From Blastococcus sp. MG754426 (GTDB taxonomy: Bacteria; Actinomycetota; Actinomycetes; Mycobacteriales; Geodermatophilaceae): a DNA stretch of 64,000 bases. The stretch lies in the NCBI RefSeq assembly GCF_021699055.1, contig NZ_SSXC01000040.1:1-64000 (forward strand), read 5' to 3'. The position numbers and the translations under genes were made by a program. Below are positions 15,351-19,773 of the stretch, piece by piece. The notes beneath the pieces are model-generated. The model ran no database searches. It was not told the origin of the DNA and saw nothing but the letters and a program-made list of their open reading frames with translations. The first letter of the stretch is position 1. Each line of letters starts with the position of its first letter.

Positions 15351-18300
15351 GTGACGCGTGTGAAGACCTGGCTCGACAGCTGGCCGGTGTACCGCCAGCT
15401 CACCGGCTCCGACCCGCTGGGCCGTGGCAAGGCCGCGCGCAGCAAGGCCACCGAGGCCACCGTGTCGCGCACCGCCACCGCCGACCGGGTCGTGAAGAGC
15501 GTCTGCCCGTACTGCGCCGTCGGCTGCGCGCAGAACGTCTACGTCAAGGACGAGAAGGTCGTCCAGATCGAGGGCGACCCCGACTCGCCGATCAACCGCG
15601 GCCGGCTGTGCCCCAAGGGCTCGGCGAGCAAGCAGCTGGTGACGAGCCCCACGCGGGTGACCACGGTCAAGTACCGCCGTCCGTTCGGGACGGAGTGGGA
15701 GGACCTCGACCTGGACACGGCGATGGAGATGATCGCCGACCGCGTCCTGGAAGCCCGGCGCAAGGGCTGGCAGGACGAGAACGAGGGCAAGCGGGTCAAC
15801 CGCACCATGGGAGTAGCGAGCCTCGGAGGGGCGACCCTCGACAACGAGGAGAACTACCTCATGAAGAAGCTCTACAGCGCGATGGGCGCCATCCAGATCG
15901 AGAACCAGGCCCGCATATAGCACTCCGCGACGGTGCCCGGTCTGGGTGCCTCGTTCGGTCGTGGCGGCGCCACGAACTTCCTGGAAGACCTCGCGAACTC
16001 CGACTGCATCGTCATCGAGGGTTCCAACATGGCCGAGTGCCACCCGGTGGGCTTCCAGTGGGTGGGTGAGGCCAAGGCCCGCGGCGCGAAGATCATCCAC
16101 ATCGACCCGCGGTTCACCCGCACCAGCGCGATCGCCGACCTGCACGTGCCGCTGCGCATCGGCACCGACATCGCGTTCCTGGGCGGGCTGATCAACCACG
16201 TCCTCAGCAACGAGCTGTACTTCAAGGAGTACGTCGTCGCCTACACCAACGCCGCGGCGCTGGTGGGCGAGGAGTTCGTCGACTCCGAGGACCTCGACGG
16301 CCTGTTCTCCGGCTTCGACGCCGAGAACCGGGTGTACGACGAGGACACCTGGCAGTACGAGTTCGAGGAGCCGCCGCACTCGGGCTCCGACGACCCGGCC
16401 GAGGCCGCCGAGCAGGACCGGCTGGAGGACGACCCCGCCGTCAAGAAGTCCGACCGCGCGCAGGCGGCCGGCAGCGGCGGCCCGCCGATCCCGGCCAAGC
16501 CCAAGCGCGACGAGACGCTGCAGCACCCGCGCACGGTGTTCCAGGTGCTCAAGCGGCACTTCGCCCGCTACACCCCCGAGATGGTGTCGGAGGTCTGCGG
16601 CATCGAGCCGGCGGTGTTCCACCAGGTCGCCGAGTGGGTCACCAGCAACAGCAACCGTGACCGGACCACGGCGTGGGTGTACTCGGTGGGCTGGACGCAG
16701 CACAGCGTCGGTGCGCAGTACATCCGCACCTGCTCGATCCTGCAGACGCTGCTCGGCAACATCGGCCGCCCCGGCGGCGGGATCATGGCGCTGCGCGGGC
16801 ACGCCAGCATCCAGGGCTCCACCGACGTCCCGACGCTGTTCAACCTGCTGCCCGGCTACCTGCCGATGCCGCACGCCCACCAGCACCACACGCTGGAGGA
16901 GTACGTCGCCGACGCCGCCGGCAAGGGCGGGTTCTGGGGCAACAAGCCCGCGTACATGACCAGCCTGCTCAAGGCGTGGTGGGGCGACGCCGCGACGCCG
17001 GAGAACGACTTCGCGTTCGACTACCTGCCGAAGATCGACGGCGACCACAGCTCGTACCGGACGATCGCCGACATGATCAAGGGGAAGGTCTCCGGGTACT
17101 TCCTCGTCGGCGAGAACCCCGGCGTCGGGCACCCGAACAGCCGGATGAACCGGTTCGGGCTGGCCAACCTGGACTGGCTGGTCGTCCGCGACCTGCAGAT
17201 GATCGAGTCGGCGACCTTCTGGAAGGAGGGCCCGGAGCACGAGACCGGCGAGCTGTCGCCGGACACCATCGGCACCGAGGTCTTCTTCATGCCGGCCGCC
17301 ACGCACGTGGAGAAGGAAGGCACCTTCACCCAGACGCAGCGGCTGCTGCAGTGGCGGCACAAGGCGGTCGAGCCGCCGAACGACGCCCGCAGCGACCTGT
17401 GGTTCTACTTCCACCTCGGCCGGATCCTGCGCGAGCGGCTGAAGGACTCCACCGACCCGCGGGACCGCCCGCTGCTCGACCTCACCTGGGACTACCTGCC
17501 CGAGGGCGAGCACGACGAGCCGAGCGCGGACCTGGTGCTGCGCGAGATCAACGGCTACGGCCCCGGCGGTCGGCTGCTGAACTCCTACCTCGAGATGGAG
17601 GACGACGGCTCGACGTCCGGGGGCTGCTGGATCTACAGCGGCGTCTACGCCGACGGGGTCAACCAGTCCGCGCGGCGGAAGCCGGCCAGGGAGCAGGGCG
17701 TCGTCGCCTCGGAGTGGGGCTGGGCGTGGCCGCTGAACCGGCGGATGCTCTACAACCGCGCCTCGGCCGACCCGGACGGCAAGCCGTGGAGCGAGCGCAA
17801 GAAGTACGTCTGGTGGGACGAGTCCGCCGGGGAGTGGACCGGCGTCGACGTGCCCGACTTCGAGAAGAAGAAGCGGCCGGACTACGTGCCCCCGGACGGT
17901 GCCCACGCGCAGGACGCGCTGGCCGGCACCGACCCGTTCGTCATGCAGGGCGACGGCAAGGCCTGGCTGTTCGCGCCGGCGGGCGTGGTCGACGGCCCGC
18001 TGCCGACGCACTACGAGCCGGCCGAGTCGGTGGTGGAGAACGCCTTCTACAAGCAGCAGGCCAACCCGACGCTGGAGATGATCGAGGGCCCGTGGAACCG
18101 GGCCAACCCGACGCGCAGCGACGTCTACCCGTTCGCCGTCACCACCTACCGGCTGACCGAGCACCACACCGCGGGCGGGATGAGCCGCACGCTGCCCTAC
18201 CTGTCGGAGCTCCAGCCGGAGTTCTTCGTCGAGGTGAGCCCCGAGCTCGCCCGGCTGCGGGGGCTGACCAACGGCGGGTTCGCCACGCTGGTCAGCGCGC

Positions 18301-18650
18301 GCACGGCGGTGGAGGCGAAGGTGCTGGTCACCGAGCGGGTGCGGCCGATCAAGCTGCGCGACGGCACGGTGGTGCACCAGATCGGCATGCCCTACCACTG
18401 GTCCTACGCCGGCATCTCCACCGGTGACGCGGCCAACGACCTGCTGGGCATCGTCATGGACCCGAACACCCACATCCAGGAGTCCAAGGTCAGCACCTGC
18501 GACATCGTCGCCGGGCGGCGGCCGCGGGGGCCCGAGCTGCTGGAGTTCGTCGAGGCCTACCGCCGCCGGGCCGGGGTCGAGTCGGGGAAGGTCGGCGTGA
18601 ACGGCCGCGACCCGGTGGCCGCCCAGGCCGGCGAAGGGTCCACCGCGTGA
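15351..18650 (+). CDS. fdhA: formate dehydrogenase alpha subunit, selenoprotein with in-frame UAG
   Basis: A molybdopterin oxidoreductase of about 1099 residues that would oxidise formate to CO2. The [4Fe-4S] cysteines are C52, C55, C59 (VCPYCAVGCAQN) and C87 (GRLCPKG). The frame is interrupted once, by TAG 15918-15920 at residue 190. The flanks read NQARI-stop-HSATVPGLGASFGRGG, matching the family pattern NQARVUHSxTVxGLxxxFGRG, in which U is the molybdenum-ligating selenocysteine (Cys in some relatives). The frame is open and conserved for 910 further codons, up to VSTCDIVAGRR and the C-terminal molydopterin-binding domain. A SECIS-like hairpin follows the TAG at the canonical distance. I therefore treat it as one gene with UAG read as selenocysteine. 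No Tat signal is present. GTG 15360 is an alternative start. Confidence 0.9.
15918..15958 (+). promoter_or_regulatory. UAG selenocysteine codon plus SECIS-like hairpin
   Basis: Directly after TAG (15918-15920) the RNA can form a stem GGUGCCC (15932-15938) with GGGUGCC (15944-15950, two G-U pairs). It closes a GGUCU loop at 15939-15943. CGA 15928-15930 pairs with UCG 15951-15953 around a single bulged C, and CCG 15925-15927 pairs with CGG 15956-15958. The loop sequence, and its first base at +19 from the recoded codon, are the same as in the E. coli fdhF SECIS element as I know it. Confidence 0.85.
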
Positions 18651-18711: not shown

Positions 18712-19773
18712 ATGACGATCAGCTCGGCGAGCCCGGCCTTCACCGGCCGCGACCCGGAGAACCGGCTGTTCGGCCCGCTGCCCGACGTCACGGCCGAGGC
18801 CGGCTACGAGGAGGAGCACCCCAAGCGGGTCGGCTTCTTCACCGACACCTCGGTCTGCATCGGCTGCAAGGCCTGCGAGGTGGCGTGCAAGGAGTGGAAC
18901 ACGCTGCCGATGGACGACTCCCACGGCGTCCGCGACGCCCTGGGCCTGTCCGGCATGTCCTACGACAACACCGGCCAGCTGGGGGCCAACTCCTGGCGGC
19001 ACGTGGCCTTCATCGAGCAGAGCCGCGCCGTCGACCTGCCGATGCCCACCTTCGGCCGCCCCGGGGACGACCGCGCCGGCAGCGGCCCCTCGCCCGCGGT
19101 GGCCGGGGACGACGTCAGCCTGGCCGACGCCCAGCAGAGCGTGCTCAACGCCGAGGCGCTGAGCGAGTACGACCCGCAGACCGGGCAGAGCGGCGCGGAC
19201 AAGCAGATCCGCTGGCTGATGAGCTCCGACGTCTGCAAGCACTGCACGCACGCCGGCTGCCTCGACGTCTGCCCCACCGGGGCGCTGTTCCGCACCGAGT
19301 ACGGCACCGTGGTCGTGCAGGGCGACATCTGCAACGGCTGCGGCTACTGCGTGGCGGCCTGCCCCTACGGCGTCATCGACCAGCGCAAGGACGACGGCCG
19401 GGTCTTCAAGTGCACGATGTGCTACGACCGGCTGACCGACGGGCTGCAGCCGGCGTGCGCGACCGCGTGCCCGACGCAGTCGATCCAGTTCGGCGACCTC
19501 GACGAGCTCCAGGAGCGCGCCGACGCCCGGCTGGCGACGCTGAAGGCGCAGGGCGTGGAGACGGCGCGCCTGTACGGGCGGGACGAGAACGACGGCGTCG
19601 GTGGCGACGGCGCGTTCTTCCTGCTGCTCGACGAGCCGGAGGTCTACGGGCTGCCGCCGGACCCGATCGTGACCACGCGGGACCTGCCGGCGATGTGGAA
19701 GGCGGCCGGCAAGGCCGCGGCGATGATGATCGGGGTCGCGGTCACCGCCGTCCTCGGCTCGCGGAGGCGCTGA
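18712..19773 (+). CDS. formate dehydrogenase beta subunit, ferredoxin-like 4x[4Fe-4S] protein
   Basis: A 353-aa electron-transfer subunit. Four cysteine clusters are visible: CIGCKACEVACK near residue 50, CKHCTHAGCLDVCP near 174, CNGCGYCVAACPYG near 207 and CTMCYDRL with CATACP near 234-255. This fits four [4Fe-4S] centres carrying electrons from the alpha subunit to the quinone-reducing subunit. The C-terminus has a hydrophobic helix (AAAMMIGVAVTAVLG) like the membrane anchor of FdnH. It starts 61 nt after the alpha gene with a strong ribosome-binding site (GAGGAGGGGAG) and ends 1 nt before the next gene. Confidence 0.93.
   Translation: MTISSASPAFTGRDPENRLFGPLPDVTAEAGYEEEHPKRVGFFTDTSVCIGCKACEVACKEWNTLPMDDSHGVRDALGLSGMSYDNTGQLGANSWRHVAFIEQSRAVDLPMPTFGRPGDDRAGSGPSPAVAGDDVSLADAQQSVLNAEALSEYDPQTGQSGADKQIRWLMSSDVCKHCTHAGCLDVCPTGALFRTEYGTVVVQGDICNGCGYCVAACPYGVIDQRKDDGRVFKCTMCYDRLTDGLQPACATACPTQSIQFGDLDELQERADARLATLKAQGVETARLYGRDENDGVGGDGAFFLLLDEPEVYGLPPDPIVTTRDLPAMWKAAGKAAAMMIGVAVTAVLGSRRR

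Follow-up and report, generated by a model that had tools for sequence, protein, structure and literature searches.

The formate dehydrogenase alpha subunit gene (fdhA) in the window, the 64,000-nucleotide stretch of Blastococcus DNA analysed here, is almost certainly a genuine selenoprotein gene of the UAG-type selenocysteine (Sec) system, as judged from sequence comparisons. Re-reading of the frame agreed with the original prediction of a 1099-codon gene broken solely by a TAG, which is codon 190 and the only internal stop between the GTG at 15351 and the terminal TGA at 18648–18650. The features of the locus were as follows.

15351–18650, plus strand: fdhA, actinobacterial molybdopterin formate dehydrogenase alpha subunit, 1099 codons with TAG as codon 190
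15915–15917, plus strand: isoleucine codon ATA, directly 5' of the Sec codon
15918–15920, plus strand: in-frame TAG, candidate Sec codon 190, from the alignment to 1h0h and the family loci
15932–15950, plus strand: SECIS-type hairpin with a 7-bp stem, predicted from the fold, pair counts and similar spacing elsewhere
18712–19773, plus strand: formate dehydrogenase beta (4Fe-4S) subunit, Pfam Fer4_11 and NCBIfam TIGR01582
19775–20821, plus strand: NrfD-type membrane subunit, Pfam NrfD_2 and NrfD

When read through the TAG, FdhA scored 1912.5 bits against the NCBIfam formate dehydrogenase model NF041513 (cut-off 1400) and contained the Pfam domains Molybdopterin, Molybdop_Fe4S4 and Molydop_binding. 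Alignment by phmmer placed residue 190 on the X of QARIXHSATV in 1h0h (formate dehydrogenase subunit alpha), presumably the Desulfovibrio gigas enzyme, in which we take this X to be selenocysteine, and opposite the C of 9qm0, an entry listed as a selenocysteine-containing formate dehydrogenase. The break had been placed at the active-site Sec or Cys position of the family, and this alignment bears that out. The true start may be the GTG at 15360 rather than that at 15351, since many orthologue alignments start at residue 2, 3 or 4. Both downstream genes were intact and uninterrupted, as had been claimed; the best NCBIfam match of the beta subunit, FDH-beta TIGR01582, reached 181.4 bits, under its cut-off of 334.7, and the NCBIfam search with the NrfD-type subunit gave no match.

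A table-11 ORF list splits fdhA into one piece running to 15920 and a 905-aa piece from 15933, as had been foreseen for automated annotation, and such a split could be read as a pseudogene in which fdhA was inactivated by a nonsense mutation. This explanation is extremely improbable in view of the orthologues. The fdhA search spanned 112 genomes of the family Geodermatophilaceae, and 51 family loci, the window included, were fetched among the matches listed. TAG was present at the Sec site in all 49 loci that cover it, including paralogues about 66–71% identical, and within the tblastn alignments it was the only stop in each of them, the alignments continuing across it in one frame with both sides conserved. 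The nearest FdhA (L011, Blastococcus sp. KM273128, L240), 97% identical, has TAG at the same codon. Since this orthologue and every covering family locus share the TAG, it is not due to chance or sequencing error, and the earlier argument that a random nonsense mutation would be unlikely to hit this codon holds.

Outside the family, 28 loci were taken from genomes of other families in the same order that had been picked for UCA-type pattern matches, and TGA was found at the Sec site in 24/24 loci covering it; the orthologues thus give the codon comparison proposed as a check, TAG within the family and TGA outside, with codon and anticodon agreeing between genomes. A named collection comprised the best 80 of 253 relatives, and the 79 covering the site divided into 54 with TAG, 19 with TGA and six with TGC. 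All 54 TAG loci belonged to Geodermatophilaceae, an assignment based on record titles, contig matches or taxonomy, and this set shares genomes with the 49-locus set.

The pattern of substitutions counted against the selenoprotein reading: differences were less biased towards the third codon position 3' of the TAG (50.1%) than 5' of it (63.7%), and changed codons were synonymous or nonsynonymous in 5500 and 6519 cases downstream compared with 1211 and 694 upstream. Several loci had initially appeared to contain a second Sec codon. Realignment of L070–L075 and L088 (recorded as one TGA and one TAG) and of L039 and L076 (recorded as two TAG) left only the TAG at 190, so the extra stops of these nine loci lie at or past the alignment ends. 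Separately, one UCA-type genome outside the family carried an fdhA (L119, G321:C4) with TGA at the Sec site and an additional in-frame TAG aligned with residue 182. Genome G079 has two fdhA copies (L077 on C12, L078 on C4) from which the Sec codon and the hairpin are deleted, with different starts and the same end of the deletion, and it still has a CUA tRNA match; these deletions are either an assembly artefact or a real loss.

The codon immediately before the TAG was also conserved at the nucleotide level. The isoleucine codon ATA occupied this place in 49/49 family loci and 54/54 named TAG loci; elsewhere in the TAG fdhA genes ATA made up just 38 of 1907 other isoleucine codons, ATC accounting for 1864 of these (about 98%) and for none at the pre-Sec site. 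In TGA fdhA genes the corresponding codon was ATT in 24/24 fetched loci and in 17/19 named loci, the other two having ATA, and the six TGC loci all had valine before the site. The ATA before TAG appears to represent a synonymous constraint in fdhA. A general need for A at position −1 of UAG could be rejected, as the UGSC-family genes described below have GAT or GAC and the AhpC-like gene has TGG there, and a strict tie of ATA to TAG could be rejected on account of the two named TGA loci with ATA.

The hairpin 3' of the TAG has an apical loop GGUCU at 15939–15943, and its stem begins 14 nt past the first base of the TAG. In 42-nt minimum-free-energy folds, the window fdhA, both UGSC genes of the window genome and an AhpD-like gene of genome G058 each had a 7–8 bp stem starting 13–14 nt past the first Sec-codon base, and the AhpC-like gene formed a helix from 13 nt in which three pairs are followed by a bulge and then by seven more pairs. 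Pair statistics were obtained from 47 distinct fdhA sequences, 27 with TAG and 20 with TGA. The seven-pair stem was formed in 95.1% of cells compared with 87.4% in shuffles and 31–62% in slid controls, both sides had changed in 25 cells compared with 8.6 in shuffles, and the covariation score was 0.265 compared with 0.119. Four stem pairs were invariant, and neither the two stem pairs with both sides changed (271/500) nor the six further pair types (426/500) exceeded the shuffles. The window hairpin by itself was of ordinary stability (z −1.03). Altogether, a SECIS-type hairpin is recognised 3' of the Sec codon, though shuffles were not beaten on every measure, and binding of SelB to it is predicted. 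As the stem is common to TAG and TGA genes, the SECIS element was probably retained through the codon switch. A SECIS model (R1) was run on the window genome, and among the best 150 of 11141 candidates scored it matched both fdhA sites and one weak site (E 0.819), leaving the UGSC and AhpC-like hairpins unmatched; the model is thus fdhA-specific. The same model gave weak matches at best in two UCA genomes (G070 and G072, E 0.045 or worse) and none in a third (G073).

The window genome (G000; 4.71 Mb in 224 contigs, 99.99% complete) bears a genus label (g1, Geodermatophilaceae) common to Blastococcus genomes. The original prediction held that this genome uses the recoded system and proposed a search for selC with a CUA anticodon together with selA, selB and selD; all four were found in one cluster. 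Among the best 150 of 1074 candidates scored with the Rfam tRNA-Sec model, at least nine matched at E ≤ 0.001 and two exceeded the cut-off. One lies at C113:36447-36538 and is a tRNA-Sec of 67.7 bits with the anticodon CUA and a long variable arm. The other is a serine tRNA, as is L003 among the seven weaker matches. A UCA-anticodon tRNA-Sec pattern had no match in this genome, so that an absent or solely UCA-type tRNA-Sec, named beforehand as grounds for refutation, was not what the search returned. The cluster, in the order selD, selC, selA, selB, spans L009 7789-12626.

L009 7789–8922, minus strand: selD, curated NCBIfam cut-off passed
L009 9448–9539, plus strand: selC, the CUA tRNA-Sec, identical with C113:36447-36538
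L009 9574–10890, plus strand: selA, curated NCBIfam cut-off passed
L009 10881–12626, plus strand: selB, curated NCBIfam cut-off passed

ARAGORN labelled every scanned CUA tRNA-Sec (L001 1501-1592 and ten further loci) as tRNA-Pyl, which suggests that the CUA tRNA might be a pyrrolysine tRNA and the TAG a pyrrolysine codon. The probability of this is negligible, because the tRNA aligns end to end with the Rfam tRNA-Sec model and scores above the cut-off, has a long variable arm, adjoins selA and selB, and accompanies TAG codons at redox cysteine or Sec sites. The best Rfam model was tRNA-Sec, and the fold is not that of tRNA-Pyl. Furthermore, comparison with the UCA tRNA-Sec of six family genomes (genera g5–g7) revealed that just 8–12 of 92 positions differ, and all six comparisons share the same four differences in the anticodon arm, namely two letters of the anticodon and one base pair of its stem. 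The tRNA-Pyl label is therefore an annotation trap for CUA tRNA-Sec.

Four more TAG genes of the window genome are selenoprotein candidates. A second fdhA (C1:251920-255213, minus strand), 70–71% identical, has TAG at the same codon; two UGSC-family genes (PF24696), on C47 and C175, each have TAG at the first position of UGSC (*GSC); and an AhpC-like gene on C24, the sole stop-bearing one among 16 AhpC-TSA matches, reads GDW-TAG-PYC. The expectation that the recoded system operates in this genome was thus met by the CUA tRNA-Sec, the sel genes and these further TAG candidates, from which Sec incorporation may be deduced. A tRNA-Sec is first charged with serine by SerRS, and UAG could in principle be decoded as an ordinary amino acid, for example as serine carried by unconverted tRNA (amber suppression), leaving selenium unused. 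Such read-through is very unlikely, given that selA, selB and selD are retained near the tRNA in 9/9 sampled CUA genomes and that in all five TAG genes found the TAG occupies a redox position known or likely to hold Sec or Cys.

Under the selenoprotein reading, SerRS would place serine on the CUA Sec-type tRNA (C113:36447-36538) and SelA would turn the tRNA-bound serine into selenocysteine with selenophosphate supplied by SelD. SelB, tethered by the hairpin after the codon, would then bring the Sec-tRNA to UAG, where it would compete with RF1. The release factor competing at UAG is RF1, and that at UGA is RF2. Among roughly picked ORFs of the window, 12/43 end in TAG, so RF1 is presumably active, and UAG elsewhere probably still terminates genes.

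The distribution of the two tRNA types was examined across the family. A CUA tRNA-Sec pattern matched in 101/112 genomes, its reversed control pattern matching one genome. Nine of the eleven genomes lacking a CUA match make up genera g5, g6 and g7, and the other two are incomplete g9 genomes. The UCA pattern matched in 8/112 genomes (control 0), namely seven of the nine g5–g7 genomes and G058; seven family genomes in three other genera therefore match UCA only. No close fdhA was found in g5–g7 among the matches listed, eight genomes giving best E-values of 1.7e-4 to 5.8e-23 and G069 giving none. Seven loci of these genera (L147–L153) hold a UCA tRNA-Sec without a close fdhA, and G072 has one UGSC gene without a stop.

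Trees were built with 18 rows for SelA, 19 for SelB and 15 for SelD. The nine sampled CUA rows formed a single group (100/100) on a long branch in all three trees. The UCA family rows formed another group (97/95 and 96/93; 83/85 with two rows in the SelD tree). Beside the CUA group, the SelA tree placed G115, an outgroup row (95/91). The trees did not demonstrate the UCA group as the nearest sister of the CUA group. As the CUA rows group together, a single switch is the simplest reading. A switch from UGA/UCA would have changed the two anticodon letters and the anticodon-stem pair, the Sec codons following.

A CUA tRNA-Sec in G230, a genome outside the family, was rejected as a second origin: the contig that holds it, 4.8 kb long, encodes a SelD 89% identical to that of the window genome. 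The other tRNA of G230 is UCA, and its selA and selB are just 62% and 53% identical to those of the window genome. The Geodermatophilaceae-like contig (L103, G230:C194) is probably contamination of a draft genome that is 82% complete. A UCA-type pattern match in G062 was likewise rejected, as neither ARAGORN nor Rfam found a tRNA in L105.

One family genome, G058, apparently Geodermatophilus sp. LHW52908, carried both tRNA types. It has a CUA tRNA with selD, selA and selB, and its fdhA and UGSC genes both have TAG; it also possesses a complete UCA tRNA-Sec (C17:1173-1263, L102; 81.8 bits) whose CCA end is encoded. Divergent from this tRNA, across a 315-base gap, lies an AhpD-like ORF (C17:1579-2157), which scored 112.6 bits against TIGR01926 (peroxidase-related/AhpD; cut-off 81.8) and matched the related NCBIfam family AhpD_rel_CFYUT under its cut-off. 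Codon 98 of this ORF is TGA, in the context NRCFY-TGA-MESHAEF at the catalytic cysteine, and the ORF terminates in TGA too. A 7-bp hairpin follows the codon at the usual distance, its 60-nt fold being of ordinary stability (z −0.04). AhpD-like homologues were matched in 84/112 family genomes and the best ones fetched; the matching codon was TGC in 29/29 fetched family homologues about 33–41% identical. Separately, AhpD-like sequences of G009 (L340, C1) and G085 (L342, C79) read CFY-TAG at the matching place and apparently represent another type of UAG selenoprotein in Geodermatophilaceae. For two other flagged AhpD-like matches, in G005 (TAG) and G074 (TGA), no alignment at E < 1 was obtained.

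The GC content of G058 C17 was 64–67% in the first 8 kb compared with 71–79% in the remainder. Transposase-like ORFs, identified by reading, and an ALIL element lie within the first 20 kb, in which no sel genes were found. Bases 50918–55526 of C17 matched three relatives near full length at 81%, which indicates that the contig is part of this lineage. The search for a close relative of the TGA gene gave at best 34% identity in 394 class genomes (up to eight candidates scored per genome), 40% in the other 111 family genomes and less than 60% throughout 333 plasmid records. The G058 tRNA region had no match in phages, and five plasmid records matched 8–14% of the query.

There is about an even chance that G058 writes selenocysteine with both UAG and UGA, its CUA system being joined by an acquired, lower-GC island of a UCA tRNA and an AhpD-like gene that uses the SelA, SelB and SelD of the host. 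The ancestor of the family would have dropped UGA for UAG, and a mobile cassette of one tRNA and one gene would later have restored UGA; the CUA-type SelA and SelB would then serve the UCA tRNA as well. Against a two-codon reading stand the single genome, the position at a contig end and the failure to find a close relative of the TGA gene, and this gene could be decaying. Among the matches listed from titles and abstract openings of the open-access literature, no genome with both UAG and UGA selenocysteine was found.

Two actinobacterial plasmids, L279 (NZ_CP110115.1) and L280 (NZ_LR134459.1), carry formate dehydrogenase, beta and nrfD genes with selD, a tRNA-Sec-like stretch, selA and selB, the tRNA-Sec-like stretch resembling the G058 tRNA-Sec region. 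As these plasmids bear the whole module, the trait can travel.

Selenocysteine encoded by UAG with a CUA tRNA is described for Geodermatophilaceae, in formate dehydrogenase and UGSC-motif selenoproteins, in PMC5330540 (Santesmasses et al. 2017), which credits the system to Mukai 2016; the survey cited in the original prediction was thus right in substance, as far as this account of it goes. The section of PMC5330540 on the system covers three genomes and also describes an AhpC selenoprotein of Blastococcus saxobsidens DD2 whose gene has TAG. The published system resembles that of the window genome in family, in its CUA tRNA-Sec and in TAG codons of FDH, UGSC and AhpC genes; the window gene therefore belongs to an already-known system. 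Beyond that section are the count of 101/112 CUA genomes, the UCA-only genera, the TAG AhpD-like genes, the two-tRNA genome and the ATA context, some of which may be in Mukai 2016. The standard bacterial UGA system likewise has SelA, SelB, SelD, a Sec-type tRNA and a hairpin right after the codon, but here the anticodon is CUA, the codon is UAG and the competitor would be RF1 instead of RF2. Pyrrolysine insertion shares the UAG codon and CUA anticodon, whereas here the tRNA is of the Sec type, its neighbours are selA and selB, and the sites are redox-active.

The window gene adds one example to an exception to the genetic code that is already published, and plain ORF callers break UAG selenoprotein genes such as this one. 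The family-wide boundary between UCA and CUA and the two-codon candidate are worth following. As the family holds the UCA state, the CUA/UAG state and a possible mixed state, a swap of codon meaning could be tested directly in soil bacteria, many of which have been cultured.
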